The notes beneath the pieces were generated by a model. That model ran no database searches, had not been told where the DNA came from, and saw only the letters and a program-made list of their open reading frames with translations. From a bacterium (GTDB lineage Bacteria; Pseudomonadota; Alphaproteobacteria; Rhodobacterales; Rhodobacteraceae), in assembly GCA_016124195.1 (NCBI GenBank), contig WGOE01000001.1:248001-312000 (forward strand): DNA of 64,000 nt, given 5' to 3'. This document shows, in pieces, positions 21,582 through 36,207 of this stretch. A program made the translations under genes and the position numbers. Numbering within the stretch: the first letter of the stretch is position 1; each line of letters begins with the position of its first letter.

Positions 21582-22268
21582 GTGGCAATCCGGTCGATGA
21601 CATTCACCCTGCTTGGGCTCGGCGCCGTTGTCGCGGCGATCGCGGCAGAGTTTTCCGCGCCGCTGCTGATGCTGAAACCTTCCGGCGCCGATGCCAAGGC
21701 GCCTGGTATCGGAATCTCCGCGCTGGCCTGTCTGGATCTGGTCCTGCTTTACACGCTGGTCTTTCTGACCGTCGATTACTTCCCAGGCATCCGCGCCGCC
21801 TTCGCCCGGGCGCAAGGCCTTGCGACGCTGATCCTGTCGATCCTCGCCCTGCTGGCCGCCATCGTGCTGGCCTTCGGCGCGTTTCAATTGCTGATGCTGA
21901 TGATCAGCCTGCTCTTGGCCGTGCCCTTCGGCACCATCGCCTATTTCGCCCTATGGGGAGATTTTGACACGGGCACAGCCAAGGCGATCCTGGGCTTTGC
22001 CATGGTATTAAAGCTTTTGGGCCTTGGCCTCTTGCTGGGCGCCAGTTTCGCGTTGATCCGTAACAAATGGCTCGTGCTGCTGGCCATCTGCTCGCTGGGT
22101 CTGACCTTCGGGCTGGGTCTCTTGCAGACCATCCCGCCCGGTTTTCTGGTCACCATCACCGATGCCCTGGGCGGGCTGGTCACGCTGATCGTCGTCATCA
22201 TCTGGACGATCATCTTCCTGATCGGGGCGATCCCGGCCATCCTGCGCGCGGTGCGCAGCGTGGCCTGA
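21582..22268 (+). CDS. Hypothetical polytopic membrane protein at the end of the injection-system locus
   Basis: 228 residues from a GTG start; about six hydrophobic segments (residues roughly 6-28, 43-62, 75-100, 100-125, 138-165, 170-190 and a final one near 200-220). No family recognised; it contains few polar loops and no catalytic motif. It is convergent with the injection-system operon (stop codons 8 bases apart) and has its own good promoter, so it may be an accessory such as an immunity-like, lysis-like or anchoring protein, or simply an unrelated gene. Confidence 0.7.
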   Translation: MAIRSMTFTLLGLGAVVAAIAAEFSAPLLMLKPSGADAKAPGIGISALACLDLVLLYTLVFLTVDYFPGIRAAFARAQGLATLILSILALLAAIVLAFGAFQLLMLMISLLLAVPFGTIAYFALWGDFDTGTAKAILGFAMVLKLLGLGLLLGASFALIRNKWLVLLAICSLGLTFGLGLLQTIPPGFLVTITDALGGLVTLIVVIIWTIIFLIGAIPAILRAVRSVA

Positions 22269-22276
22269 GCGGACCC

Positions 22277-22738
22277 TCAATCGTTGACGGCAAAGGTGAC
22301 CGGGCCACGCGGCGCCTCCAGGATCAGGTCGGCGTCGCGGTCGCGCACCACGATGCTGCCGCGCTGGTCCTTGCCAGCCTGGTCGCAACTCGCCAGAACG
22401 CCGGGGCCGGCGATGCACAGAACCGCCTCAGGGCTGCCGGGCACATGGATCGTGACCCTGAGTTCCGGCCCGCTGAGCAGATGAAAGCGCACGACCCCCA
22501 GCTTGCCATCCTCGGCGAAGAAACGCCCGCTCCACCGGTTGCCCATGGCAAGCGCCTGTGGCGGTGCTGCGCGCGGCTTTGCGGCCGGCGGGTCGGGCAG
22601 GAGGCCGATCAGCCACGCGGGCAGGCCCGGCGAAAACCCCGCCGGCGGCGCATTGCGCGCCGGCTGCGACGGCCAAAACGCGAGGATCGCCACAAAGATC
22701 AACCCCACGGCCAGCAGACCCGCGATCATCCAGCGCAT
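22277..22738 (-). CDS. Hypothetical single-pass anchored protein, last gene of the injection-system operon
   Basis: 153 residues, preceded by GGGGAGAG. One N-terminal hydrophobic segment (residues about 4-22) works as an anchor or signal; then a proline/alanine-rich linker (about 25-62) and a small beta-rich domain (about 65-153) with two cysteines (EAVLCIAGPGVLASCDQ) that could form a disulfide in the periplasm. No family recognised. It follows the PASTA-type protein in the same direction after 43 bases. Confidence 0.7.
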   Translation of the reverse strand: MRWMIAGLLAVGLIFVAILAFWPSQPARNAPPAGFSPGLPAWLIGLLPDPPAAKPRAAPPQALAMGNRWSGRFFAEDGKLGVVRFHLLSGPELRVTIHVPGSPEAVLCIAGPGVLASCDQAGKDQRGSIVVRDRDADLILEAPRGPVTFAVND

Positions 22739-22781
22739 GAGGCTCTCCCCGCGCGGACAGGCCAGAGTGAAAGACCTGGCG

Positions 22782-23771
22782 TCATGGCTTGATCAACTCC
22801 AATTGACGCAAGCTGTTTTCGATCCGGTTGGTGAACTTGATCGGCGGATCGATGACGCAGAGCCTGGGATTGATCTTGCAGGGATTGGTGACGGGTCCGG
22901 TGCCGGGCTTTTCGTTGACCGCGACCTGGATCGTCTCGCCCAGCTTGACCACGCTGCCTTCGTGCGGCGTGACCGAGGCGACCACGTTGTTGTCAAGCGA
23001 GGCGTCGTTGGCCACGGCGGGGGCCACGACCAGACCGATGTTGGCCAGCTTCTGCACCGCGATGATGATGTTCTGGTTGCGCAGCCCGGTGGGCACTGTC
23101 ACGCCCGGATCGGTCAGCAGCACCGTCGCCCCGCCAGGCCCGACGCCGACCCCGCTGACCGTGCCCGGTTCATAGCCGTCGGGCTCGGGGGCGGGCTGGT
23201 TGCCGATGTTGGGATATCCCTCTGTCGCGGCGATGCGCTGCGCGTCGGCCAGGGTGCGGCCCGCGACCAGCCGCGGATCGAGCTTGTGCTTGGGCCAGAA
23301 CATGTAGGCCCCCGCACCGGCAAGGGCCACGACCAGAACCGCAATGACGGCATAGGCCCAGACCGGCACTTTCGGCGGCGGCGGCGGTGCGGCTGGCGCC
23401 ACGATGTCAAAGCCGATCGCCGGGCCGATGGCGAAATCGGTATCGGGCTTCTGTTCCGCCGTGACGCGCAGCCTGAAGGTCTTGCGTCCGGCCGGCGCGC
23501 CGGCAGGGATGGTGACCTGCACGGTGACGCTGACCGCGCCGCCGGCCGCGAAATCCTGTTCCAGTTCCAGGGGCGAGGTCGCCAGACCGCCAGCGATGGC
23601 GAACCATTCGGGCCGCGCGCCCGCGTCAGGCTCGATCCGCACGCGCCCCGCCTGCCGGTTCGCGGCGGTGCTGCGCACGCTGCAGGTGACAGAGCCGGCT
23701 TGCACGCCCAGGGCATCCGGCTTCGACAGGTCGAGCCGCGTCGGGCAATCGGCGAATTCAAAGGTCGGCAT
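22782..23771 (-). CDS. Single-pass membrane protein: FADCPTRL-type N-terminal domain, membrane segment, PASTA-like outer domain
   Basis: 329 residues. Residues 1-125 form a beta-rich domain without signal peptide (MPTFEFADCPTRL, with a second cysteine at 30, Ig/BACON-like strand pattern). A proline run and one membrane segment (about 137-158) follow, then PASTA-like repeats (about 163-300; DPRLVAGRTLADAQRI, NPGxx-type gly-rich turns) and a cysteine-containing tail. By analogy with PASTA proteins the N-terminal domain should be cytoplasmic and the PASTA part periplasmic. The N-terminal half is clearly homologous to the next protein (23793-25502). It may anchor or signal to the injection particle; function not established. 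Confidence 0.78.
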   Translation of the reverse strand: MPTFEFADCPTRLDLSKPDALGVQAGSVTCSVRSTAANRQAGRVRIEPDAGARPEWFAIAGGLATSPLELEQDFAAGGAVSVTVQVTIPAGAPAGRKTFRLRVTAEQKPDTDFAIGPAIGFDIVAPAAPPPPPKVPVWAYAVIAVLVVALAGAGAYMFWPKHKLDPRLVAGRTLADAQRIAATEGYPNIGNQPAPEPDGYEPGTVSGVGVGPGGATVLLTDPGVTVPTGLRNQNIIIAVQKLANIGLVVAPAVANDASLDNNVVASVTPHEGSVVKLGETIQVAVNEKPGTGPVTNPCKINPRLCVIDPPIKFTNRIENSLRQLELIKP

Positions 23772-23792
23772 GATCCAGTCTCCCTGTGGCGT

Positions 23793-25502
23793 TCATCGAC
23801 CGGACGACAGGCTGTCGATCCGGTTCCATCCATCGTTCTGCGCGGACGGTCCCGAGCCCGCGAAGGTCTTTTGGTAGATCGTGCCCTCGACGGTGCGGCC
23901 AAAGACCTCGATCCGGTCCGGACCGGACACCACGGCCACCGGAGCGCCGACAAAGCTGCCGCCCAGATCGTCCCAGCCCGTGCCAGCCGGGATCCAGCCG
24001 CCGCTGCCATCACCGGACTTGTGGAACATCGCGCCTCCCTGCCCCGTGGCCGAGCCGACGGCAAAGATGTCGAGCTTGCCAGGCCCGCGGGTCACGATCG
24101 CGGGACGATCGACGAAACTGCCGCCCAGCGAGGCCCAGCCGATGTCTGAAGGTTGCCATTGGCTGCCGTTGAAGGCCTTGTAGTGCAAGGCACCGTCAAG
24201 CCCGATCGCAGCGACATCCAGCCGGCCAAGCGCCCAGCTGCAAATCGAAAGGGGCCCGGCGAAATCGCCGCCGAAATCGGCCCAATGAGCGAAATCGACC
24301 GTCCCGTCCAGCCATCGGGCGTAGAAATGGTGATCGGGGGACAGGCTGAACAGATGCAGCGTCTGCGGCCCCCAACTCACACCTGTCGGAGCCCGGGCGA
24401 AGGTTTCGCCCTTCTCGGACCAGTTCTGCGGCTCGGACAGGGGCTCTGCCGCGCCCGACCAGCGGGTCATGTGGCCCGCCGTGTCGAGCGCGAAGATGTC
24501 CAGTTCGCCGCCGCGCCGGATCACGAAGGGCGCGGCCTTGCCCGACACGATGTAATGGCGCGTCCAGGTCCCGAGTGCGGTGCCGGGGGTCGGGATGGCC
24601 GCGTGCAGCAGCACGTTGTCGATGCCGGTCGCGGCGAGGTCGATCATGCCGTCTTGCACCGTGGCAGAAATTTCGCCCTTGGCCGAGGCGTCAAGCGGCT
24701 GCCAGTCATAGGGCGGCGTCCAGGTCGTGCCGTCGAAATGCTTGCGGTAGATGCCCTGATCTTCGGCCAGAGCGAACAGATCCACGGTGCCGGGGGCGGC
24801 CGAGACGGCAGCCGGGGTCGCGACGATGCGGACACCCGGCTCGACATAAAGCGTCAGATCCCCGTTGCCGGCCAGGGCGACAGAGGTCACCCTGCCGGCC
24901 TTGACCCCGGTGCGCGGCCCTTCGACGGCAATCGGGTTGGGAAATTTCTCGGCCCGGGCGAGGTCGAGTGCCGCGGCGGCGTCCATGTCGACGAGGGTGT
25001 TCGGGTCCGGCCGGCCCTTGGGCCAGAGCGCCCAGCCCATCGCGGCCAGCATCGCCACCGCGACCGCCGCGATCACGGCAAAGGCCCACCACGGCACCTT
25101 TGCCGGTCGGTCGGGCGGCGCGCTCCACGGGGCCACGTCAAAGCTGACCTGCGGGGCCTCGACGAAATCGGTGTCGGTGACCTTTTCAGAGATGGCGCGC
25201 AGCCGGAAGCTGACCGATTGCGGTGGCGTACCGGCCGGGACCCTCACCGCAACCGTGGCACTGACAACGGCATCGGGCTCGAAGGTCACCTCGATCTCGC
25301 GCGGGTTGGTCGCGACGGCGCCGTCCAGGCGGAACCAGTCGGGCAGCGCCTGCCCTTCGACCTTGATCTGAAGCCGCACCGCCACCCTGCGCGACGCGGT
25401 GCTCTTGACCGAGCAGGTCAGCCGGCCCTCCTGCGCCACGCCGCTGGGCGCTGTCGTCAGGGTCAGGCGGGTCGGGCAATCGGCGAATTCGAAATCGGGC
25501 AT
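23793..25502 (-). CDS. Single-pass membrane protein: FADCPTRL-type N-terminal domain, membrane segment, PASTA-like segment and lectin-like beta-propeller
   Basis: 569 residues. Residues 1-125 match the paralogue at 22782-23771 (both start MPxFEFADCPTRL, cysteines at 9 and 30, DTDF near 111-113). Membrane segment about 137-160; PASTA-like segment about 166-228 (VDMDAAAALDLARAEKFPNP). From about 235 to the end are repeats of roughly 45-50 residues with patterns such as GWASLGGSF and GWDDLGGSF plus DIFAVG/DIFALD, as in PLL-type fucose-binding propellers. If the N-terminus is cytoplasmic, the propeller faces the periplasm and could bind glycans. No catalytic residue seen. Four bases separate it from the ceramidase-like gene. 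Confidence 0.8.
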   Translation of the reverse strand: MPDFEFADCPTRLTLTTAPSGVAQEGRLTCSVKSTASRRVAVRLQIKVEGQALPDWFRLDGAVATNPREIEVTFEPDAVVSATVAVRVPAGTPPQSVSFRLRAISEKVTDTDFVEAPQVSFDVAPWSAPPDRPAKVPWWAFAVIAAVAVAMLAAMGWALWPKGRPDPNTLVDMDAAAALDLARAEKFPNPIAVEGPRTGVKAGRVTSVALAGNGDLTLYVEPGVRIVATPAAVSAAPGTVDLFALAEDQGIYRKHFDGTTWTPPYDWQPLDASAKGEISATVQDGMIDLAATGIDNVLLHAAIPTPGTALGTWTRHYIVSGKAAPFVIRRGGELDIFALDTAGHMTRWSGAAEPLSEPQNWSEKGETFARAPTGVSWGPQTLHLFSLSPDHHFYARWLDGTVDFAHWADFGGDFAGPLSICSWALGRLDVAAIGLDGALHYKAFNGSQWQPSDIGWASLGGSFVDRPAIVTRGPGKLDIFAVGSATGQGGAMFHKSGDGSGGWIPAGTGWDDLGGSFVGAPVAVVSGPDRIEVFGRTVEGTIYQKTFAGSGPSAQNDGWNRIDSLSSGR

Positions 25503-25505
25503 CTC

Positions 25506-26618
25506 TTAGCCTCGCCGTTCTGCAGGATCACGGAACACCACGGGCCGGTCGCCATCGGCCGTGTCGTTGCGATTGACCTGCACCAGGATGTCATAGCTGA
25601 GCAGCAGCGCCGCCGCGGTCAGAAAATGCCACCAGGCATGTGGCTGAAAGGCGCCGTCGGGCGCGCACATCCAGCGCGGTGTCGCCGCATCGCCGCTGCC
25701 CTCGTAGCCGTCCGACATGCGAAACAACAGCCCGAGCCCCAGCGTTCCGGCGATGAGGCCGTATTCCCACACCAGCCGCAGGCGCAGCGGTGCGTTGACG
25801 GCAAGTACCGGGATCATCTGCAGGATCAGGATCGCCGCCAGGGCCGCAAAGACCACGGTGGAATCCCAGTGGAAACTGGTCTTGATCAGGACGCCCAGCA
25901 CGACGATGGCGGCAGCGGCCACGACATTGACCAGCCAGCGCAGCCACCACAGCCAGCCGAAAGCGTGCCGCACAAAGGCCAGCACGCTCGCCACCGCCAC
26001 GAAAACGGTCAGGACCAGCATGGCCAGGATCGCTTCGGCCTTGCCGCTGATCAGCCAGACCAGCCCGGTGGCCAAAAGCCAGGCCGCCGCCACGATCAGC
26101 CACAGGGGCCACCACGGCAGCTTCAGGAAACCGGGTCGCTGGACATGGACGTAAGCCGCATAGAACGACAGGGACAGCAGCGCCGCATAGACCCAGACCA
26201 CATCGAGGATCTGCGGAGTCTCGGTCAGGCTGGCGTGATAAAGGCCGCTCATCCCAGACAGGATCAGAAGGTTGAGGCCCAGAAGCATCGCGGCCCAGGA
26301 CCTGCCCCGTATCAGGATCAGCCCGCCCGCCAGCGCATAGCCAAGGTTGGACAGCGTATTCTGCGCTTCGGCGACCCAGCTCTTGTCAATCGGCCGTTCG
26401 CACTGGTCGCCATGCACGGCTGACAGGTGGGCGATGTCGGTGCCATAGACCGTGGCCGGCTTGTGAAACATCGCCAACACGTAGAGAAATACGAAGAAGG
26501 CGGCAAATCCGAGGGCCAGGCCCAGGGCACCCGCGGTTCGGCTGCTGCGCAGCGCCGCGATCCGTCCGGCGAGACCGGCGCCCGGGGCGGCAAGGGGTGT
26601 GGCGGGGAAGTCTTTCAT
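25506..26618 (-). CDS. Ceramidase-superfamily (CREST-type) integral membrane protein
   Basis: 370 residues from the ATG at 26618; an upstream start at 26672 would add an unlikely proline-rich stretch. First membrane segment about 31-52, then the family's conserved C73-E74 (DQCERPI) with N87 and S90-N91 (EAQNTLSNLGYAL), SGLYH with H128, D139, and HAWWH with H327 and H331 close to the C-terminus. These residues correspond to the metal-binding set of alkaline ceramidases and related membrane hydrolases. Likely a zinc amidohydrolase acting on a lipid in the membrane, or a distant non-ceramide relative. It lies inside the injection-system operon, which is unexpected. Confidence 0.78.
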   Translation of the reverse strand: MKDFPATPLAAPGAGLAGRIAALRSSRTAGALGLALGFAAFFVFLYVLAMFHKPATVYGTDIAHLSAVHGDQCERPIDKSWVAEAQNTLSNLGYALAGGLILIRGRSWAAMLLGLNLLILSGMSGLYHASLTETPQILDVVWVYAALLSLSFYAAYVHVQRPGFLKLPWWPLWLIVAAAWLLATGLVWLISGKAEAILAMLVLTVFVAVASVLAFVRHAFGWLWWLRWLVNVVAAAAIVVLGVLIKTSFHWDSTVVFAALAAILILQMIPVLAVNAPLRLRLVWEYGLIAGTLGLGLLFRMSDGYEGSGDAATPRWMCAPDGAFQPHAWWHFLTAAALLLSYDILVQVNRNDTADGDRPVVFRDPAERRG

Positions 26619-26640
26619 CTGGGCGCGTCTCCGGCACGGT

Positions 26641-27174
26641 TCAGGGGGCGGGGCCGATTTCGGCGGTGACAAAAGCGGGCTTCCAGGCCGCGACGATCCT
26701 TTCGATCAGCGCCTGATGCCGGCCCGCCGTCGCCGGCACCTCGATCCGGATGTGAAAGGTCTGCGGGCGCCCCTGCGCGTCAGGAGGATTTTCCACAAGG
26801 CGGAAGCCATGGCTGGCGGTCGCCACCTCCAAGAGGCCGATCATCGCCCCGGCCGTGCCGCGCGCCCGCGACAAGGTGGCCGCTGCCACGACCAGTTCGC
26901 GCAGCGCCCCGGGGTCGATGCTGGTGGCGCGAACCTGATCGGGGTCCTTTTGCCCGAACAGCACGGGATCGAACCCCAGCCATCCGGCCAGCATCACGAC
27001 AAAGGGCTCTGGCGCGCGGCGCGGGTCGAACCAGGCGTCCAGATCGGCCAGCACGGCCTCGGACGGGGCAAGATGCGATTGCATCACCGCGAGGATGGTT
27101 TCCAGAATGCTGCCCGGGGTGATCCCGGCCTGGACCGCCTCTGGCAACAACCGCGCGATGGAGCGGAGTTCCAT
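26641..27174 (-). CDS. Phage tail protein I-like baseplate component
   Basis: 177 residues. Matches the tail protein I / baseplate wedge family common in contractile injection clusters: LRSIARLLPEAVQ start, FDPRRAPEPFVVMLAGWLGFD, and RARGTAGAMIGLLEVAT in the middle. It joins the wedge to the baseplate. The baseplate J gene ends 4 bases upstream of its start. Cytoplasmic assembly presumed. Confidence 0.85.
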   Translation of the reverse strand: MELRSIARLLPEAVQAGITPGSILETILAVMQSHLAPSEAVLADLDAWFDPRRAPEPFVVMLAGWLGFDPVLFGQKDPDQVRATSIDPGALRELVVAAATLSRARGTAGAMIGLLEVATASHGFRLVENPPDAQGRPQTFHIRIEVPATAGRHQALIERIVAAWKPAFVTAEIGPAP

Positions 27175-27178
27175 GCCC

Positions 27179-29716
27179 CTATCCCTCGGTCAACGTGTTT
27201 TCGCCAAGCACGGTCAGATCGTGCTCTCCGGCGCAGTACAGGGCATTTGGCGGCAGCGGGGCGCGGTCGGCGTAAAGCGTGCGCCCGCTGGGATCGAAGC
27301 GCGCTGTGGCAAAGGGCCGGGCATAGACGCCCTCGGCACTGGCCGCGAGGATCAGCGCCAGATCCGCCGACAGGGCGACGCCGTTCAAGGGGGCCAGCAC
27401 CTTGCGCTCTTCGGCGATGGGCAAGCCAGAGGCGAGGGCCGACGGCGTCCAGACCGGATCGGCCTCGCTCAAATCCAGCGTCATGATCCCGCCCCGGTTC
27501 GAGGCGGCGGCGATCATGCCCTTGCCGATGGCCAGCCCGGTGCAGCTGCCGCCGTTCCAGCCACGCCCGACCGCCTGCCAGCCGCCGAGATCAATGCCAT
27601 CGGCCCGCGCCTCGATGCGCAGAACACCCTCGCCATCCGCACCGCTTTCGGCGGCCAGCGTCGCGTAAAGCCACATCCTTTCGCCCTCGCGGCTGAAGTA
27701 CAGCCGGCGCACGTCGCGGCCCTCTGCCCCCGGCACGACTTCGAAACTGCCGGGCTCGCCGCTGGCACGCGAGATCAGCACACCACGCTTTTCGCGCCGG
27801 GCAATCGCGACCATCGGCACGCCAAAGGCATGACGCTGCGCCACGACGGAATAAAGCCCCTCGGTCAGGCTCTGATCCGCCTTGGCCCCGACCTGGGTGA
27901 CCAGCATCGAGACCTGCTGGCTGCCCAATTCCAGAAAATGCAGGCCCTTGCGCCCGGCATAAAGCAGGGTCGAGCGAATGCCGTTTTCCAGGCTTGCGAT
28001 ATCATAAAGCTCTTCGTCCTGCAGCGTCTCGGCGGTGGTCCAGCTTTCGCCGCCATCGGTCGAAACCTTGACCGCCCGTGTGTCAGTGGTGCGCCCCTCG
28101 GTCAGGGCCAGCAAGAGGCCCGGTCTTTCGGGGTTGGCGCGCAGGGCTTTGACATCGGCCTCTGCCTCCATCAACACGGCGGTCCAGCTTTCGCCATCGT
28201 CGAGCGAGCGGAACAGCGTGGCGCCAGAGGCCGCGTAATAGGTGCGCGGCTGGGTCGGGTCGCGCAGCAGGTCGGCGACGTTCTGGTCCGGGCCCTCGTC
28301 GATGCGGAAGGTCAGGCGTTCAGCATAGCGCACCCCCGGTTCGGCCAGGATCGCCTCGAACACATCCGAGGCGCGCAGGGTCTTGCCGAAGGGCCAGGGC
28401 CCGTTGGGGTTTAGCAGATCGTCCAGCCTTTTGCCGATGCTGGTCTTGACGGCGGCAGGGTCTTCCAGCGCGGACACAACGATCCGCGCGCTGATCGAGA
28501 CGGGACGACAGCGGGTATAGCGGGCCAGCGTGCGCACCCCGATCGGCCGGTGGCGCGCCAACGCGGCTTCGATGCGCGCGATGAGCAGCGGCGTCTGATG
28601 GGCGCGCAGCGTGGCCAGATCGGGCCTGACGCCCGGGGCAAGCTCGGGCACCACGGCGACCTCGACCAGGCCAGCTTCGCCGAAAGTCCAAAGCTCGCGC
28701 TGCGCCTGAGCCCGGGCGCGGGCGACCCCGCCGGCCATCAGCGCCACCCGTTCGAAATCGCGCGCGGTCACCGCGCTGGACAGGGCCTGCACCGCCTCGC
28801 GGCCGCGGGCGATGGCCTGATCCAGCGTCTCGCCATCCTCGCCACCGGTGGCCCAGCCCGGATTGGTCACCGTGACGCCCGGGACCGGCGTTTTCATCAC
28901 GCTCAGCGTGCCAGGCATGACATTGCCGGCCCGCCCGCCGCCGGTCATGTACCAGACGCGGATCGCCTTGGCCTTGTCCGGCACCGCCGTCAGGGTGGCC
29001 GATCCTGTGCCGCCCAGCGGGGCAAAGGTGAGTGTGCCGGTGGTGCGGTCCACCGTATAGACCCGGTCTGTTGCGGCCTGATCCAGAAACGAGGCGACCT
29101 CGCGCCAGCGCACATGCGCCGTGCCGTCGACCTCGGTCACGGTCAGGTCCGGCGTCAGCCGGGCCGCATCCTCCTCGACCACGACGATCAGTGTCGGCCG
29201 GTCGGGCAGATCGCGGATCAGCGGGCCGCGCCGCAGCCGCACGAACTGCGCCGGCAGGCCGGTGCCGATGCCGGCGGGCTCCCACAGGGTCGTTTCGGCA
29301 TGGATGGCGGTGACGGTGCCCGAGGCCACGCCCGCCGCCAGCGTCAGGTCTCCCACAGTCTGGAAAGTCACCGCATTGGCCTTGTCGGAAACCCGCGTGC
29401 CAGCCGGAACCGTCACCGCCCGCCCGGCCTGATCCTGCGGGCGCGAAAAGGCCAGCGTCACCACGGCAGCGGCCGGCGACAGCGGCGCCACGCCCAGAAG
29501 ATTCAACAGCGCCACATGCACCTTGTCCGGCACACGGTTGAGCCGGTGCAGCATGGTCTGGGTCAGAAAAGCGAAAAGTTCCAACAGGATCATGCCCGGA
29601 TCGCCCGCCGAGAAATCGGTCCAGGCCGGGCTGCGCGCCTTGATCAGGTCGCGCGCCTCGCGCATCAGGTCGTCATGGCTGCGGTCGTCCAGCCTTGGAA
29701 ATGCAAGCGGCATCAT
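27179..29716 (-). CDS. Baseplate J-like protein fused to a BNR/sialidase-like propeller
   Basis: 845 residues. Residues about 1-380 are the Afp11-type baseplate J module (WTDFSAGDPGMILLELFAFL is a hallmark; later GGVARARAQAQRE). From about 480 to 845 it has propeller-like repeats with Asp boxes SLDDGESW (near residue 503) and STDGGESW (near 552). Afp-type baseplate J proteins often carry extra domains, but a BNR-like region is uncommon. The extra domain would sit at the outer rim of the baseplate and may contact a surface or the membrane proteins of this operon. The start overlaps the gp25 stop. Confidence 0.87.
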   Translation of the reverse strand: MMPLAFPRLDDRSHDDLMREARDLIKARSPAWTDFSAGDPGMILLELFAFLTQTMLHRLNRVPDKVHVALLNLLGVAPLSPAAAVVTLAFSRPQDQAGRAVTVPAGTRVSDKANAVTFQTVGDLTLAAGVASGTVTAIHAETTLWEPAGIGTGLPAQFVRLRRGPLIRDLPDRPTLIVVVEEDAARLTPDLTVTEVDGTAHVRWREVASFLDQAATDRVYTVDRTTGTLTFAPLGGTGSATLTAVPDKAKAIRVWYMTGGGRAGNVMPGTLSVMKTPVPGVTVTNPGWATGGEDGETLDQAIARGREAVQALSSAVTARDFERVALMAGGVARARAQAQRELWTFGEAGLVEVAVVPELAPGVRPDLATLRAHQTPLLIARIEAALARHRPIGVRTLARYTRCRPVSISARIVVSALEDPAAVKTSIGKRLDDLLNPNGPWPFGKTLRASDVFEAILAEPGVRYAERLTFRIDEGPDQNVADLLRDPTQPRTYYAASGATLFRSLDDGESWTAVLMEAEADVKALRANPERPGLLLALTEGRTTDTRAVKVSTDGGESWTTAETLQDEELYDIASLENGIRSTLLYAGRKGLHFLELGSQQVSMLVTQVGAKADQSLTEGLYSVVAQRHAFGVPMVAIARREKRGVLISRASGEPGSFEVVPGAEGRDVRRLYFSREGERMWLYATLAAESGADGEGVLRIEARADGIDLGGWQAVGRGWNGGSCTGLAIGKGMIAAASNRGGIMTLDLSEADPVWTPSALASGLPIAEERKVLAPLNGVALSADLALILAASAEGVYARPFATARFDPSGRTLYADRAPLPPNALYCAGEHDLTVLGENTLTEG

Positions 29717-30153
29717 CTGCCCTCCGTCATCAGGTCGAGGCCCAGGGTCAGCGTCTCGCGGCGCTGGGTGGCGCGCACGCGGTAGTCCAGCTTGATCTCC
29801 AGCACGCTGCCCGAGGCATCCTGCGGCGCGGGCCCCGCGACCAGCCGCACCACATCGATGCGCGGCTCGAACCGGCGCAACGCCTGAGTGACGTAATGGA
29901 TCGCAAGCCCGGCCGTGGTCGCATCATTGCCGTTGAAGATCAGCCGGTTGAGCGGGCAACCATAGTCGGGCCGCATCACCCTTTCGCCCGGACGGGTGGA
30001 CAAGAGCATCACGATGGCCTGCCGAATCGCCGCATCGCCCGAAACCGTCGCGATGCCGCCCGAGGCCGTGACCTGCGGGCCAGCGGGCATGATCGCGCCC
30101 GGCTCTGCCCCCGCCCCGAGATTCAGAAACATCCAGCCGGTCGTGAGGGCCAT
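29713..30153 (-). CDS. gp25/GPW-family baseplate wedge protein
   Basis: 146 residues. Contains the gp25-like core: DAAIRQAIVMLLSTRPGERV, then MRPDYGCPLNRLIF, the conserved RP.YG signature. Forms the wedge around the spike, comparable to Afp9. Stop overlaps the baseplate J start by 4 bases; the PAAR-like gene ends 3 bases upstream of its start. Confidence 0.9.
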   Translation of the reverse strand: MALTTGWMFLNLGAGAEPGAIMPAGPQVTASGGIATVSGDAAIRQAIVMLLSTRPGERVMRPDYGCPLNRLIFNGNDATTAGLAIHYVTQALRRFEPRIDVVRLVAGPAPQDASGSVLEIKLDYRVRATQRRETLTLGLDLMTEGR

Positions 30154-30156
30154 GGC

Positions 30157-30498
30157 TCAGCCCCCGCAGGTCAAGAAATCTTGGCCGGGCCGCGCCACGC
30201 TGTAGCGCCCGGTGGCGCCGAGGCTCCAGTCCGTGCTGCCGGCCGTCTTGTCGAGGCAAAGCCTGCGCCCGCCGATCGCCACGAAGGCCGACAGGCTTTG
30301 CGGATCGATGCTGGTCGTGTGCCGGCAGGGCGGTGTCGTGGGCGTCACCATCGGACAGGCCGAGATCGTGCGCCCGAGGGGATCGTCGTCGATCAGCACC
30401 GGAACCCGGCCGACCGTCACCCAGTCCTGCTGTGCGGTCATGTTCACGACACCGCCATGGCTGCACAGCAAAAGCGCCTCTCGGGTCAGGACGAACAT
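30157..30498 (-). CDS. Small cysteine-rich PAAR-like spike-tip candidate
   Basis: 113 residues, no signal peptide. LTREALLLCSHGGVV resembles the start of PAAR-like/DUF4280 tip proteins; further cysteines at CPMVTPTTPPCRH and near the end (FLTCGG). It lies between VgrG and gp25, the place where Afp10-type tip proteins occur. Assignment rests on these motifs and position, not on a full match. Confidence 0.65.
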   Translation of the reverse strand: MFVLTREALLLCSHGGVVNMTAQQDWVTVGRVPVLIDDDPLGRTISACPMVTPTTPPCRHTTSIDPQSLSAFVAIGGRRLCLDKTAGSTDWSLGATGRYSVARPGQDFLTCGG

Positions 30499-30501
30499 CG
30501 G

Positions 30502-32001
30502 CTAGCCCCTTTCGAAGTTTATGAAGTTGGCGCGGAAGGTGATGGTGCGCCCCGGCGCCTCGATCAAAAGGTCGGTCACGGTCGCCAGACGGGCCGCGCC
30601 GGGCAACAGTTCCAGCAGGCTGCCCGCCGAGGTGGCCAGCCGCGCCGTGGCCTCGGTCGAGGACAGCTCCAGCCGCTGCCCGCCGCTGGTGCGCAGGATG
30701 AAGGGGCGCGGGCGGGTGGCGCGAAAGCCGCGCGGCAGGTCGGCCTCGCCGTAAAGCCCGCCGAGGATGATGCCCTGCGCCGGGTCGCCGTCGGGCAGCA
30801 AGACCAGCACCGTGTCGTCCACCTCTGGAAAGGCCGCGAGGCCCTTGCCGGAACCCGCGCCGGAAATCACCACCGGCAGCCAGAGCGAACCCGTCCCGCC
30901 CAGCGCGGGAAAGGCGACCCGCGCCCGGCCGTGTTGTTCGGGGTCCAGCGTATCGGTGACCACGCCCAGCGTTACCGCAGGCTGGCGCGGCCGCGGCGCC
31001 CGTCCCGGCGGGGTGGAGTCGAGTTCGGTCAGGTAGCCGATCTCGGGGTTGATGCGGTGCGTCACGACGGTCGGCACATACCGCCCGGCCACCGCCTCGG
31101 CCACGCCCTGCAAGGACACCGGCCGCCCCGGCATCAGCGCCGGATCGCCCAGCACCGTCGCCCGGATCGCGGCGGCCGCCGCCACGGCGCGGTCGAAATC
31201 GGCGGCGGCCAGCGCCTCGGCCCCGGCCTCGCCCGCGCCCTGCCGGTTCAGGCATTGGCGATACCCGCTGGCCCCTTCGTCGGGCGAGGTGTCGCGGAAT
31301 TCCTCGGCATCCTGGCGCGACAGGGTGACCGTGCGGGTCGCGGCCCGCGCCTCGGCCGCGGTCCAGGTCGCGGCGACACTGCCGCGCTGGTTGCGGTCGT
31401 TCGAGATCGTGGCCTCCAGTTCGACCAGTTCGCGCCCCAGGGTGAGGGTGATCTCCTCCCCGTCGCCATCCAGGGCCACCAGCAAGAGCGTGTCGTCGCG
31501 CAGCACCGGGTAAAGCCCGGCCTCGCCGGCCAGATCGGCCAGCAGATCGAAATCGCTCTGCTCGGTCTGGATCAGGGCGGCGCGGCGCGGCGGCGTCGTG
31601 GTGGCCCGCGCCGCAAGCCCCAGATCGGCGGCCAGCGCCTGCGCCAGATCCAGCGCCGAGACATCCTGCACAAGGCGCGGGCGAAAGGCCTTGCGCAGGC
31701 GCTGCAGCCGGTCATAGGCGCGGAGGCGAAAGCCGGGCGCGTGGCCGGGCCCGTAAAGATGCGACAGGGCGGTGATCTCGCCCTGAAACAGGATCGCGCC
31801 CATCGGCCCGGTGCCCAGCGACAGGCCGGCCCCGATCGCCATGCCGGCAAAGGGCCCGGGGTCGGCCGCGACAAAGTCGATCTCGCAGAGCGCGGGGGCC
31901 GCCAACGCCTGCCGCACGATGATGGAGGTGGCCAGCCGCGCCAGGCCTGGCTGCATCGGTCCGCCGCCGATGCTGATCTGGATTTCCCCCACCGGTGTCA
32001 T
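30502..32001 (-). CDS. VgrG-like central spike protein
   Basis: 499 residues. Gp27-like hub part (residues about 1-330) and a gp5-type OB-fold/needle part near GVVTDTLDPEQHGRARVAFPALGG and PDGDPAQGIILGGLYG. No long C-terminal effector extension: the chain ends at NFINFERG. Trimer at the tip of the tube, comparable to Afp8. Start overlaps the LysM-protein stop by 4 bases. Confidence 0.9.
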   Translation of the reverse strand: MTPVGEIQISIGGGPMQPGLARLATSIIVRQALAAPALCEIDFVAADPGPFAGMAIGAGLSLGTGPMGAILFQGEITALSHLYGPGHAPGFRLRAYDRLQRLRKAFRPRLVQDVSALDLAQALAADLGLAARATTTPPRRAALIQTEQSDFDLLADLAGEAGLYPVLRDDTLLLVALDGDGEEITLTLGRELVELEATISNDRNQRGSVAATWTAAEARAATRTVTLSRQDAEEFRDTSPDEGASGYRQCLNRQGAGEAGAEALAAADFDRAVAAAAAIRATVLGDPALMPGRPVSLQGVAEAVAGRYVPTVVTHRINPEIGYLTELDSTPPGRAPRPRQPAVTLGVVTDTLDPEQHGRARVAFPALGGTGSLWLPVVISGAGSGKGLAAFPEVDDTVLVLLPDGDPAQGIILGGLYGEADLPRGFRATRPRPFILRTSGGQRLELSSTEATARLATSAGSLLELLPGAARLATVTDLLIEAPGRTITFRANFINFERG

Positions 32002-32786
32002 GGAACCCCCATCGGAAAGTCTGGCAGAACCAAAACGCGCCCCTCCGGCGTGTTGAGGGGGTCATCGATGGCGTTGTAATCCAGCACGGCGGCAAGGGCG
32101 GCGAGGCTGCCATAATGGCCGGCCACGATCTGATCGATCCGCGGGTTCGGCATGCCGAATTCATCCGGCATCAACAGCACGCTTTGCCAGCGCGCCTCGC
32201 CATCGGCCTCGGCCGTGCCAAGCGCGGGCAATTCGAACTGCGTGGTGGCGGGCATCGGGGCGGGGGCGGCAGAGGTCTCGCCATCGATCCGGCGCAGGCG
32301 CAGCCGCAGCCAGGACCGCTGCGGCCGGCCATCCATGGCAAAACGCTCGAACTTTTCCGAGACGGCGATGACCACGCCGGGAATGTTCCAGGCGCGGCCC
32401 CAGATCATCCGCACCACGGGCGGCGCACCAAAGCCCGAGGCGCCCTCGCCGTTTTCTGCCAGGTTCCAGACCGGGCGCGTCAGGTCGCGCACATCGGGCA
32501 GCAGCAGGTCGGGCGGCGGCTGGTCGGGTGCTGCGGCCTCCGGCGCGGCTTTGCGTTTGAGGTCCTGATCCAGATCGGTGTCGAACAAAAGGTCCAGGTC
32601 AATCTCGGTGATGCCGCCGCCCGTGGCGATCAGGGGATCGTCGGACAGGGCAAGCCCGGTGATGGCGCCCGTGGCCAGCCTGCGGCTGCGCAGCCCCGCC
32701 TGGCGCCGCACGACGACCGTCTCGGGGTTGAGCAGGCACAGGATCTGCGCGCCGGTCTTTTCGACGAGGAAAGCTACCCGTTCCAT
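31998..32786 (-). CDS. LysM-domain tube/hub protein (Afp7-like)
   Basis: 262 residues. N-terminal VEKTGAQILCLLNPETVVVRRQAG resembles the LNPxx strand motif of tube-type CIS proteins; the C-terminus is LysM-like (ARWQSVLLMPDEFGMPNPRI, AALAAVLDYNAIDDPLNTPEGRVLVLP). Adapts the tube to the spike in this kind of system. It overlaps the upstream proline-rich gene by 13 bases. Confidence 0.85.
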   Translation of the reverse strand: MERVAFLVEKTGAQILCLLNPETVVVRRQAGLRSRRLATGAITGLALSDDPLIATGGGITEIDLDLLFDTDLDQDLKRKAAPEAAAPDQPPPDLLLPDVRDLTRPVWNLAENGEGASGFGAPPVVRMIWGRAWNIPGVVIAVSEKFERFAMDGRPQRSWLRLRLRRIDGETSAAPAPMPATTQFELPALGTAEADGEARWQSVLLMPDEFGMPNPRIDQIVAGHYGSLAALAAVLDYNAIDDPLNTPEGRVLVLPDFPMGVP

Positions 32787-33856
32787 GACCGTTCCACCTG
32801 GTCTTGCGCCAGCCGGGCAAGGCGGGCGCGGTCCTCGTCACGCGCTGGCGCATCGACGGATGTGGTTTCCGGCAGACTTGGCCAGCGTTCGGCGGAGGGC
32901 GCCTGCGGCCAGGCCTCGGCCCCGCCGGATCGGGTCTGGGGCGGGGGCCAGGACATGCCGCTGGTCAAGGGGTGCTGCGCCGGAGGCCGCGGCGGGATCG
33001 CCCGCGGTTCGGGCGCGGGCGGGTCGAAGACGGCAGGGCGAGGTTGCGCAGGCTCGGCTTCCGCCGGCCTTACGACGGACAGAGCCGGGGGCGGCATCAC
33101 CGCACCTGCCACCTCGGCAAAGGAATGGGCGGGGCGATCCGGCTTGCACGTCTCGTGTCCTGCCACGGGCAGCGGCTTGACGGGGGGATCGGCGGGCCGC
33201 GGAACAGGTGCGGCCGGAACCAGCCGGACGCGACCGGGCAGCGCCACGGCCAGCCGCGCTGCCGGCAGCACGGCCCTGGCCTGCGGGACAGGCAGCGACG
33301 GCGCGGCAGGAAAGGACGGCTCGGCATGAAAAGACGGCGCGGCTGGAAATGACGGAGGGACTGGAAATGACGGAGAGACTGGCGCCCTCGGCCCGGGCGT
33401 CGCAGGGAAGGCCACGACGGGCCGGCCCTTTGCCTGCCGGACGCTTTGCAAGAAGACGGCGCGCGGCCCCTCCGGTGGGGCGGAAGCTTCGAAGACCGGG
33501 GCGGAGGCACGGGTCGCCGGCGTTCCGGGCTCGGCCCCGACCACGCGCAGGTCGGACACAGGATGCGGGCGCGGGGTCGGGTCTGACGGGGGCCGAGACA
33601 GAGCCCGATCCTGCCGCTCGATCTGCCCGCCTTCCGGGTCGGGCAAGGAATGTCCCTCGTCCAGTCGTTCGGCCACATAGGCCAACCACGCCTCCGGCGC
33701 GTCGGGATAACGCGCGCGCAGGGCGGCATGGCGACGGTCGGCGACGAGGTCTGCGAAGGTTTCGGGAAGGGCCTCGGAGGGTGCCGGCTCCATCGTCGCC
33801 GCCAGCCGCCGAAGCGCCGCCGCCGCAACTTTCAGGACATGGGCCAGCACCCCCAT
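32774..33856 (-). CDS. Proline-rich hypothetical protein between tube and LysM protein
   Basis: 360 residues. Residues about 1-75 look folded (helical, then LVADRRHAALRARYPDAPEAWLAYVAERLDEGHS); the rest is proline/alanine-rich and presumably disordered, with short repeats of the type PSFPAAPSF (about residues 160-185). It has the GC-rich third positions of its neighbours, sits in a tightly packed operon (3 bases from the tube gene, 13-base overlap with the LysM gene), and is therefore real. Forward-strand open frames over the same region are shadows. No family recognised; could be an assembly linker or a cap-to-tube connector. Confidence 0.7.
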   Translation of the reverse strand: MGVLAHVLKVAAAALRRLAATMEPAPSEALPETFADLVADRRHAALRARYPDAPEAWLAYVAERLDEGHSLPDPEGGQIERQDRALSRPPSDPTPRPHPVSDLRVVGAEPGTPATRASAPVFEASAPPEGPRAVFLQSVRQAKGRPVVAFPATPGPRAPVSPSFPVPPSFPAAPSFHAEPSFPAAPSLPVPQARAVLPAARLAVALPGRVRLVPAAPVPRPADPPVKPLPVAGHETCKPDRPAHSFAEVAGAVMPPPALSVVRPAEAEPAQPRPAVFDPPAPEPRAIPPRPPAQHPLTSGMSWPPPQTRSGGAEAWPQAPSAERWPSLPETTSVDAPARDEDRARLARLAQDQVERSWNG

Positions 33857-33859
33857 CGG

Positions 33860-34318
33860 TCACGACCGCCCGACGCTGTCGAAGACCAGCTTGACCTGTT
33901 CGATGGCAATCTCGCGGCCCAGGGCGTCCAGCGACACGCCGCTCCACTCGCAGGGCCAGGCGTCGATCAGGTTCCAGCGCAGCGCCTCGTCCGCGCCATT
34001 GGGGTCGAGCACGATGATCGACACGTTGCGCCGTTCCACCCGGCCCGAGACCCCCTTGCCGAACCAGTCCCACAGGTCGGTCGACCGGGTCAGCCCGTAG
34101 CTCAGCGTCACCTCGGAATAGTCCACCGGGCCGGGGATGGCGCGCACGACCTGGCTCGTGCCGCCCTCGCGGTAACGAATGGGCTGGATGCGCGCGCCAA
34201 GCCCCGAACAGGCGGTGAAATGGCCCTCGATCAGGCCGCGGATTTCCAGCTTGAAGTTGAAATTGCGATAGGGATCGGTCATCTGACCGAGCGCTCCGCC
34301 TGCCTTTTCTTCGGCCAT
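33860..34318 (-). CDS. Inner tail tube protein
   Basis: 152 residues, gp19/Afp1-type. Typical features: DPYRNFNFKLEIRG near the start, then HFTACSGLGARIQPIRYREGG. Hexameric rings of this protein form the inner tube. It is the only tube gene in the locus, whereas Afp-type clusters often have two. Confidence 0.92.
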   Translation of the reverse strand: MAEEKAGGALGQMTDPYRNFNFKLEIRGLIEGHFTACSGLGARIQPIRYREGGTSQVVRAIPGPVDYSEVTLSYGLTRSTDLWDWFGKGVSGRVERRNVSIIVLDPNGADEALRWNLIDAWPCEWSGVSLDALGREIAIEQVKLVFDSVGRS

Positions 34319-34337
34319 CCTCGTCAGTCCCCCTCTG

Positions 34338-35537
34338 TCACGCCTGTTCGACCGCAGCGCCGGCGGCCGTCTGGCCGATCCGGAAGATCACGAATTCCGC
34401 CGGCTTGACCGGCGCGATGCCGATCAGCGTCGTCACCCGGCCAATGTCGATTTCGGCCTGCGGATTGGTTTCCTCGTCACATTTGACGAAAAAAGCCTGT
34501 TCGGGCGTGGCCCCCATCAGCGCGCCCTGCCGCCACAGGGTCGTCAGGAAAGCCTCGATGTCGCGCCGGATGCTTTTCCACAGCGTACGGTCGTTCGGCT
34601 CGAAGACCACCCAGCGCATGCTGTTTTCGATCGATTCCTCGATCATGTTGGTCAGCCGGCGCACGTTGAGGTATTTCCAGTTGCTGGCGGGCTTGGCCAG
34701 CGTGCGGGCGCCCCAGACCAGGATGCCATCGGTGGCAAAAGAGCGGATCACGTTGATGCCGGCGGGATAGATCAGCTCTTGTTCGGCCCGGCCGACCGAT
34801 TGAGTGACCCCCAGCGCGCCGTAGATCGCGGTATTGGCCGGCGCCTTGTGCACGCCGCGCTGCGTGTCGATGCGCGCGCAGATGCCCGCGATATGGCCCG
34901 AGGGCGCGACATCCACGCGCGCCGTGCCCGACAGCGCATCCTGGGCACGGATCCACGGGAAATAAACCGCGCCATAGCCGCGTTCGGAGGGCGGAGGGCG
35001 CAGGCCGGGCTTCTTGCCCTTGCCGGCCTCTTCGCCATCGACCATCACCCGGGTCAGTTGTTCGGCGTCATCGACCCGCGCCGGCCCGTCCAGAATGGCC
35101 ACCCGGTCGCCCAGACCCTCGGCCGATCGCAAGAGCGCCTGATAGCTTGCGGCATCGGTACGGCCGGGTGCTGCGATCATCGCGATTTCGTCGATGGCGC
35201 CCAGCAGGTCCAGATCGGTGCCCGGCGCGCCCAACGGGCGATCCGCCGGCCCGTTGCTGACATAGCAGCGCCGCCCGCCGTTCAGGAAAAACCCGTGGAC
35301 GGCATTGGCCAATGGATTGCCGGCTGGGACGGCAGGGCCATCGGGCCGCATGACGCCCTGCACGAAGATGCGGACGAATTCCGAGAAATTGTTGACCGCC
35401 ACCGCCTCGTTCGGTCGGGCCGCGGCATCGGGCGCCGTGCCGATGAAGCCCGCGACCGAGGTTCCGACCGCCTGGATCGGTCGGGCCCCGCTGTCGATTT
35501 CCTCGATATAGACCCCTGGGCTGGTGTAGTCCGGCAT
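34338..35537 (-). CDS. Contractile tail sheath protein
   Basis: 399 residues from the ATG at 35537 (MPDYTSPGVYIEEIDSGARP is the universal sheath start). C-terminal FRIGQTAAGAAV tail and VFEPNDRTLWKSIRRDIEAFL are the conserved handshake region. Length is at the short end for sheath proteins. The only sheath gene in the locus; many extracellular contractile injection systems carry two or three. An upstream in-frame start at 35609 would add residues unlike any sheath. Confidence 0.93.
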   Translation of the reverse strand: MPDYTSPGVYIEEIDSGARPIQAVGTSVAGFIGTAPDAAARPNEAVAVNNFSEFVRIFVQGVMRPDGPAVPAGNPLANAVHGFFLNGGRRCYVSNGPADRPLGAPGTDLDLLGAIDEIAMIAAPGRTDAASYQALLRSAEGLGDRVAILDGPARVDDAEQLTRVMVDGEEAGKGKKPGLRPPPSERGYGAVYFPWIRAQDALSGTARVDVAPSGHIAGICARIDTQRGVHKAPANTAIYGALGVTQSVGRAEQELIYPAGINVIRSFATDGILVWGARTLAKPASNWKYLNVRRLTNMIEESIENSMRWVVFEPNDRTLWKSIRRDIEAFLTTLWRQGALMGATPEQAFFVKCDEETNPQAEIDIGRVTTLIGIAPVKPAEFVIFRIGQTAAGAAVEQA

Positions 35538-35541
35538 GTGC

Positions 35542-36207
35542 TTAAGCCTCCACGGACAGGATGAGGGCGAGATGGTCGCCCGGACGTGCGTTCGCCCGCG
35601 CCTCGGCAAGGCGCTTGCGGGCGATCACGGTGAAAGGGGCAGCGCCGGCCGGCAGGCCCGCAAAGCGGAAGCGACCGTCGGGCAGGCTGGTCTGGCGCAA
35701 GTCCAGCGACGGAATCTCGACCAGCGCGCCTGCGACGGGCCCGCCCTCGGGCGTGGCGACCGATCCGTCCAGCGTGCCCATCCCGGACATCTGGACGACC
35801 AGAGGCCGCAGCACCGGTGGCCCGGCAGGCTGACGCCGGGCCCGCACAAGCCGCGCCGCCAGGATCAGCCCCAGCGGATCATCGCCTGCGGCCGGCTTCA
35901 GCGCGATGGGAACGGAGTCGCCGCCCTCGATCGCCAGCACGGGCAGATCGGTCAGCGCGAAGGCGATCTCGGTCATCAGGCGGTGGCGGGCGAAGGCGTC
36001 GCCGGCCTCGACCGCGATGCGGTAGGTCAGCGTCAGGGCCGTCGCCCGCCGGTCCGAGGGGTCAACCCCAAGCCCGGCCAGAACAAGCCGGATCACTGGC
36101 GCCTTGGCTCCGGCCTGAGCATCGTCGATCACGACTTCGGCCTCGGCGAAGCTGGCTTCGCACCAAGCCTTCAAAGCCCGTGTGATGCTGTCTGCTGCCT
36201 GCGCCAA
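35542..36207 (-). CDS. DUF4255-type tail terminator/cap-like protein (Pvc16/Afp16 N-terminal family)
   Basis: About 221 residues if it starts at the TTG at 36207 (GGGGG lies 4-5 bases upstream, and the family begins here: LAQAADSITRALKAWCEASF); an ATG at 36294 in the same frame would add 29 basic residues that do not fit the family. Conserved: VIRLVLAGLGVDPSDRRATALTLTYRIAVEAGD, then a C-terminal carboxypeptidase-regulatory-like beta domain (TLDGSVATPEGGPVAGALVEI, SLPDGRFRFAGLPAG). First gene of the operon. The start is uncertain; the family is fairly sure. Confidence 0.78.
   Translation of the reverse strand: MAQAADSITRALKAWCEASFAEAEVVIDDAQAGAKAPVIRLVLAGLGVDPSDRRATALTLTYRIAVEAGDAFARHRLMTEIAFALTDLPVLAIEGGDSVPIALKPAAGDDPLGLILAARLVRARRQPAGPPVLRPLVVQMSGMGTLDGSVATPEGGPVAGALVEIPSLDLRQTSLPDGRFRFAGLPAGAAPFTVIARKRLAEARANARPGDHLALILSVEA

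Follow-up and report, generated by a model that had tools for sequence, protein, structure and literature searches.

Gene content of the operon

The 64,000-nt stretch of DNA analysed here (the window) comes from a Rhodobacteraceae bacterium (GCA_016124195.1, contig WGOE01000001.1, forward-strand positions 248,001 to 312,000) and carries a compact contractile injection system (CIS). At window positions 22277-36207 lie 14 genes on the reverse strand, all with open frames; given intergenic distances of just -13 to 43 bp, we took the operon as a single transcription unit. In the direction of transcription, the genes encode the cap, sheath, tube, a proline-rich protein (PRO), the tube initiator, VgrG, a PAAR-like tip, gp25, baseplate J, tail protein I and the membrane-associated proteins called CER, TMp, TMq and SM in the following. 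A divergently oriented helicase gene starts 304 bp upstream, and a further membrane protein gene, TM6, follows on the opposite strand 8 bp past SM (Table 1). The original prediction had described one intact reverse-strand operon with the core genes and membrane proteins, and this is confirmed for every gene that it named. It had overlooked the PRO gene, and it had taken the convergent TM6 gene as a boundary of the locus.

The core genes were assigned by Pfam and NCBIfam scans. The sheath, tube, initiator, VgrG, gp25, J and tail I are all found in one cluster, as in extracellular CIS (eCIS) or phage-like protein translocation structures (PLTS) of the Afp/PVC type; judged by these assignments, the set of cap, sheath, tube, spike and baseplate is complete within one unit. 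The best PDB match of the sheath is 8bky (E 5.5e-93) and the nearest one of J is 9gtp from a Streptomyces CIS (E 2.4e-51), which makes the cytoplasmic Streptomyces CIS (CIS-Sc, type IId) the nearest among solved structures for both proteins. The PAAR-like protein has no Pfam match of its own. The cap had been named a DUF4255 protein (Pvc16_N, PF14065); this domain was found in four of seven cap relatives, three of them above the Pfam cut-off, but the window copy alone matches just CarboxypepD_reg, below the cut-off of that model. The cap profile also matches an annotated DUF4255 gene in a Nostoc locus (L117). The cap start codon is probably the TTG at 36207, judging from a comparison of this position with the homologue in L033. 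For TM6, the ATG at 21597 is the more likely start.

Table 1 Features of the compact operon and of the adjacent TM6 gene, in window coordinates
Feature	Position	Strand	Match or basis
Cap/terminator (Pvc16/DUF4255-like N domain + CarboxypepD_reg-like domain)	35542..36207	-	CarboxypepD_reg; PF14065 in relatives
Single contractile sheath, 399 aa	34338..35537	-	PF17482 E 2.8e-20, PF04984 E 1.1e-14
Single inner tube protein	33860..34318	-	PF06841 E 1.4e-34, TIGR02241
PRO, Pro-rich, 360 aa, candidate ruler/plug	32774..33856	-	Family profile
Tube initiator (CIS_tube)	31998..32786	-	PF19266 E 1e-6; LysM-like C-terminus by eye
VgrG spike/hub	30502..32001	-	PF04717 E 3.7e-18, PF05954, NF033848; PDB 7aef, 9gtr
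PAAR-like tip, Cys/His-bearing, 113 aa	30157..30498	-	Family profile in 58/58 long loci
gp25-like sheath initiator	29713..30153	-	PF04965 E 1.3e-25
Baseplate J (Cis11-like) + fused C-terminal BNR/Asp-box, propeller-like region	27179..29716	-	TIGR02243 E 9e-68
Tail protein I (Cis12-like)	26641..27174	-	PF09684 (Tail_P2_I) E 2.7e-7, TIGR02242
CER, ceramidase-like accessory protein with multiple transmembrane (TM) segments	25506..26618	-	PF05875 E 2.6e-7, just below cut-off
TMp, second bitopic protein, Ig-like N domain, TM ~141-159	23793..25502	-	N-domain family that of TMq
TMq, bitopic: Ig-like sandwich 1-123, TM helix 137-157, two PASTA-like domains 163-289	22782..23771	-	
SM, small protein, N-terminal TM	22277..22738	-	Family in 71/85 loci; remainder beta-rich-looking by eye
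TM6, six-TM protein, membrane-domain fold of a cation diffusion facilitator (CDF) zinc transporter	21582..22268	+	No Pfam/NCBIfam model for family

Recurrence of the compact gene set

With the J protein as query, 54 of 72,556 plasmid records were matched, and in five of them the match spans 80% of J or more; these belong to Paracoccus MC1862, Deinococcus AJ005 and three Rhodovulum plasmids. The compact gene order is shared by all four plasmid loci inspected. An alignment of five J proteins was used to find loci in named genomes, of which the best 80 of 84 were kept. Together with the window and the four plasmid loci this gave 85 loci, from which family profiles were built using open reading frames (ORFs) of at least 50 aa. 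As the loci were gathered via J, they represent a J clade by choice, and the remaining architecture was not selected for. For most loci the sequence covers just ~10 kb on each flank of J, with 26 loci below 19 kb; among the 59 of at least 19 kb we omitted L101 (J cut short, no sheath), leaving 58 long loci.

The genes for sheath, tube, initiator, VgrG, the PAAR-like tip, gp25, J, tail I and the TMq/TMp family are present in all 58 long loci, TM6 and SM in 57 each and the cap in 56, with every family together in 48. TM6 is accordingly a conserved partner of the system. The long loci, several of which are metagenome bins, belong to Pseudomonadota, Chloroflexota, Myxococcota, Acidobacteriota, Actinomycetota, Planctomycetota, desulfuromonads and Deinococcota; a shorter verrucomicrobial locus with J, TMq and TM6 (L112) adds a ninth phylum. 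Over all 85 loci, TMq was detected in 78, SM and TM6 in 71 each, and none of TMq, SM, TM6 and PRO in 16 stretches from 13 conventional loci. As far as these profiles tell, the three membrane families travel with the compact system across phyla.

This association can also be followed within one genus. Of 101 Micromonospora genomes, all 58 with a compact J (E below 1e-90) also encode TM6; two further ones have TM6 without this J, for a total of 60, and 41 have neither. TM6 is likewise missing from the ten genomes in which J is of the ordinary kind only (E 1e-40 to 1e-48). The genomes counted here are related, and the counts represent non-independent events. TM6 was found in one of 195 relatives and one of 398 phylum-level genomes, both times the source genome itself. 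A tblastn search of the plasmid records with TM6 gave two matches, both accompanied by the compact system; the Rhodovulum plasmids, which the profile detects, were not recovered in this way. The family and genus of the source contain other CIS types and no close relative of the compact system among the genomes searched (among 198 genomes, J in 8 besides the source; among 16, the sheath in one besides it, G077, in a longer form). Three Rhodobacteraceae loci (L023, L024 and L025) have gp25 and J-like genes with no sheath match within the ~20 kb covered; these clusters may be cut by the end of the stretch or belong to another CIS type.

The compact J proteins are distinguished by an extra C-terminal region (about residues 470-845 in the window) with Sortilin/BNR hints below cut-off. 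An Asp-box-like motif is present in 74 of the 77 J proteins of the compact family, and the J proteins of 13 outgroup loci remain unmatched beyond profile position 511. In a J tree, computed without the J of L022, 76 of 77 compact-family proteins stand apart from 12 outgroup proteins; the J of L111 groups with ordinary eCIS, and this locus shows none of PRO, SM and TM6. In L016, from another genome of the source family, a stretch (G048:C8:5192-5461) matches part of the extra region alone (residues 496-591, E 6.7e-5), by which this kind of domain may also exist outside J.

PRO is encoded between the tube and initiator genes. Its family profile matches in 64 of the 85 loci and in 52 of the long ones, and the other six long loci have a comparable ORF at this position. 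The protein is probably disordered and features an N-terminal helix-like stretch, a P-x-x-W motif, a WPxLP motif and a C-terminal DQVERSWNG end. The window copy has no match in Pfam, NCBIfam or PHROG; among the family members scanned, no Pfam or NCBIfam match exceeded its cut-off, with one member matching Peptidase_M3_N weakly (E 0.0048). An Afp14-like tape measure was likewise not matched in the operon by these three collections, making PRO a positional candidate of another kind, which may be the seemingly missing ruler. A fibre-like Pfam match was absent from the operon genes, with no fibre profile run and the genome not searched for a fibre. The original claim that both components are lacking is thus amended, with PRO as a candidate ruler; a lack of both would in any case be nothing special, as Streptomyces type IId systems are also described without them (PMC10066040, PMC12237407). 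The PRO of L102 (L102:5651-6988) contains repeated PQVPGT units and that of L055 a doubled PPAHW block, as if its length had been altered by the gain of repeats. Sle1 of Streptomyces lividans shows that a tape-measure-like protein can be cargo (PMC13277306), a precedent by which PRO could also be read as cargo.

The AAA+ ATPase, a criterion for eCIS/PLTS of the Afp/PVC type and described as always present in such clusters (Sarris 2014, PMC4122934), is missing from the window system. A profile built from seven eCIS ATPases was positive in nine of the 16 conventional stretches, seven of these being its own seeds, and reached E 4e-105 or better in all four conventional eCIS genomes, including the seed genome G126. 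None of the 85 compact loci carries such an ATPase in or near the operon. The original prediction had named its presence there, or a conventional eCIS elsewhere in the source genome, as findings that would speak against it; a second conventional eCIS was rejected, with one sheath match genome-wide. An ATPase acting in trans in the source genome was rejected as well, since both matches there are FtsH proteins that contain an M41 protease domain. No eCIS ATPase was found in 15 of the 22 carrier genomes, the source included; as drafts, some of these may miss genes, and their best matches cover the AAA core alone (E 3e-18 to 1e-28). Because most of the carriers tested are without one, the compact system seems not to need an eCIS ATPase.

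Membrane proteins linked to the system

The four proteins encoded downstream of tail I comprise one ceramidase-like protein, two bitopic ones and a small one with an N-terminal TM anchor. The bitopic TMq/TMp family lies mostly directly behind the baseplate genes (in L042 the copy is upstream), and some loci carry two copies. The structure of TMq was compared by VIA-align. Depending on the species, the C-terminal half contains PASTA, Kelch, sugar-binding or other domains; in the window TMp, C-terminal repeats without a Pfam match resemble a lectin-type propeller by eye. A hydrophobic stretch near the N-terminus is missing in all 83 proteins examined, and of the two flanks of the TM segment, the N-side one carries more positive charge in 63 proteins and the opposite one in 9, with 11 ties, counted from script-chosen starts with a few odd rows omitted. 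Both observations point to an N-in/C-out topology. TMq-profile matches without a TM helix occur in L041, L096 and L111.

Both SM and TM6 are present in 69 loci, and in 56 of these they lie within 500 bp of each other, with TM6 in either orientation. TM6 varies in place and orientation among loci (e.g., L030:20770-21438) with the linkage kept, and in L029 (L029:8062-8751) and L035 it is located directly upstream of the cap. Neither family gave a Pfam or NCBIfam match above cut-off among the members scanned, nor a PHROG match for the window copies, and TM6 has no PDB sequence match. Foldseek gave no match below E 0.001 for TM6, so its likeness to the six-helix CDF-type membrane fold comes from a second aligner. 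CDF transporters such as YiiP/ZnT share this fold; TM6 lacks their C-terminal domain. The CDF zinc site consists of DxxxD in TM2 and HxxxD in TM5; in an alignment of 37 TM6 sequences this site is not kept, and D52 and K144 are conserved without a partner acid at +/-4.

CER, with ~7-8 hydrophobic segments, was found in just 6 of the 85 loci (the window, L033, L070, L087, L102 and L112) and was therefore rejected as a core part. It adjoins TM6 in L070, L087, L102 and L112 and may, as a lipid enzyme, serve the dock or the shot.

A proposed membrane dock and its alternatives

Comparison with known systems provides a framework for these membrane proteins. In Streptomyces, the gene for Sco4242/CisA lies just downstream of cis11/sco4243, and TMq/TMp likewise follow J and tail I (PMC10066040). 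CisA is bitopic with a cytoplasmic N-terminus and required for firing, and its binding to the J protein Cis11 is predicted (PMC12237407). The Streptomyces CIS differs in having two tube genes and an AAA+ ATPase, whereas the window operon has one tube gene and no ATPase, and in lacking the added C-terminal region of J. The S. clavuligerus locus (L116) has no TMq, SM, TM6 or PRO profile match; a search with the CisA sequence was not made. Streptomyces Sco4256-4258, compared by description, resemble TMq/TMp in a conserved N-terminus, one TM segment and a variable, partly sugar-binding C-terminus; TMq/TMp differ in being present in all long loci, mostly right behind tail I.

The type IId CIS of Chloroflexota and Deinococcota (Gaisin 2026) share host phyla with the compact system and are intracellular, with no close cisA homologue described; the cluster scheme of Roseiflexus, unlike the compact set, includes an ATPase gene (PMC12998442). 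In the thylakoid-anchored CIS (tCIS) of Anabaena, the particle is held on the producer's membrane, as we propose here, the anchor being formed by a TM helix of the fibre-like Cis13 together with an extension of Cis12, whereas the compact system would use separate genes, if at all (PMC8894136). Haloarchaeal CIS of clade IIa are membrane-bound, have a linked six-TM putative anchor with a cytoplasmic domain of ~150 residues, and are described without a tape measure (PMC11566945). The H. larsenii locus has an AAA ATPase gene, unlike the compact loci, and the TM6 profile has no match in the H. larsenii stretch, which may not include the anchor gene.

With moderate confidence, and on the strength of gene content and order, we favor a compact, ATPase-free, single-shot CIS that would dock with its baseplate outward on the producer's own cytoplasmic membrane, because TMq occupies the position of CisA after the baseplate genes, and J has acquired a region that might serve as its dock. 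The particle would assemble in the cytoplasm and then dock. The cytoplasmic Ig-like domain of TMq/TMp would bind the baseplate, most likely at the extra region of J, as predicted for CisA and Cis11, and the outer half (PASTA, Kelch, sugar-binding or other) would hold the cell wall or sense the exterior; SM and TM6 would complete the dock. A signal via TMq/TM6 might then free the baseplate, upon which the sheath would fire once through the own envelope, at a neighbor or at the firing cell itself, and without an ATPase it would not be recycled. PRO would probably be extended in the tube as a ruler or plug, its C-terminus on the hub. A membrane-anchored system had been part of the original prediction; the linked membrane genes and the CisA-like position and topology speak for it, while docking itself is what we infer.

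Several observations weigh against such a dock. The TM flank charge of the window TMq looks higher on the C side, contrary to N-in. Ig-like sandwiches of the TMq kind are also common outside the cytoplasm, and many of the structure-matched chains are secreted proteins. Two Micromonospora genomes (G722, G755) have TM6 without a compact J match, and an eCIS-type ATPase is encoded elsewhere in 7 of the 22 carriers (the genomes of L035, L038, L045, L049, L055, L064 and L091), with a weak match to the AAA core only in that of L064. The separate IcmF/TssM gene of the source genome means that a conventional type VI secretion system (T6SS) may do the outward work, and for the very similar Sco4256-58 proteins of Streptomyces, the reported role is that of effectors rather than anchors (PMC10066040).

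Regarding such a T6SS, the operon proteins have no TssJLM or TssK match (T6SS i-iii) in the Pfam and NCBIfam scans. The IcmF/TssM gene lies on another contig (G000:C10:26136-27071), and the source genome probably carries a conventional T6SS besides the compact system. On a plasmid of Rhodovulum MB263, genes for a T6SS-type VgrG and PAAR are located upstream of the compact locus (L031:4612-6920).

The chief rival to docking is that TMq/TMp are cargo, the Ig-like N-terminus loading onto the particle and the TM segment with the wall- or sugar-binding C-terminus acting on a membrane after firing. We consider this possible but unlikely. The architecture of Sco4256-58 favors it, with similar N-termini, one TM segment and a ricin-type C-terminus in two of three, and most particles that the triple mutant produced were empty (PMC10066040). 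The diverse, often wall-binding C-terminal domains and the two copies in several loci, as is frequent for effectors, fit cargo as well. However, the family is present in all 58 long loci, compared to 47 of 94 CIS-positive Streptomyces with effectors of the Sco4256-58 type, and it is mostly placed straight after the baseplate genes. PASTA and Kelch domains would moreover be atypical as cargo of the tube lumen.

A released extracellular particle, with the membrane genes serving release or protection of the producer, appears improbable to us. Its cap, sheath and baseplate are eCIS-like, and TM6, CER and SM could act as release or immunity factors, but no operon gene is assigned as a fibre in the Pfam scans, and the membrane genes recur almost as regularly as those of the baseplate. 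Tethering would be a fitting role for PASTA and the other domains of the bitopic proteins. Very improbable is a conventional eCIS with ATPase and tape measure encoded elsewhere: the seven carriers with an ATPase speak for it, but the majority of carriers show none, and in the genomes of L045 and L091 the ATPase sites are separated from the compact locus by hundreds of kb, provided that contig C1 refers to one and the same contig. Decay from a larger eCIS to a remnant, to which the gene count below Afp/PVC might point, was rejected, as the frames are all open and the set, with its separate J clade, is repeated in eight phyla among the long loci, strongly supporting the original view of a minimal rather than degraded system.

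The docked injector could be more unusual still. We give a slim chance to a separate phylum-spanning class with eCIS parts, a wall-binding bitopic dock, a disordered Pro-rich ruler and no recycling, in which TM6 would be a gate derived from an ion transporter whose conserved intramembrane Asp-Gln-Lys-Asp set senses an ion gradient. If this were true, the syringe would fire upon wall damage or loss of membrane energy.

We found no description of the compact lineage in the open-access literature on membrane-anchored CIS, eCIS subtypes, the host genera and baseplate propellers; the dbeCIS of Chen et al. 2019 may include some members under type IId. Published surveys required ten or more core genes (Geller 2021) or a more complete set of components (PMC12210884). 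With nine core genes by the present count, the lineage would probably be lost to such gene-count filters.

The compact lineage occurs in at least eight phyla and in 58 of the 101 Micromonospora genomes sampled. It represents a minimal contractile machine and a natural test of the need for an ATPase, and its three membrane families and ruler-like protein provide an entry to how a cytoplasmic CIS meets the membrane and fires. Taken together, the analysis suggests a small, complete injector with its own set of membrane proteins that fires while docked at the membrane of its producer.

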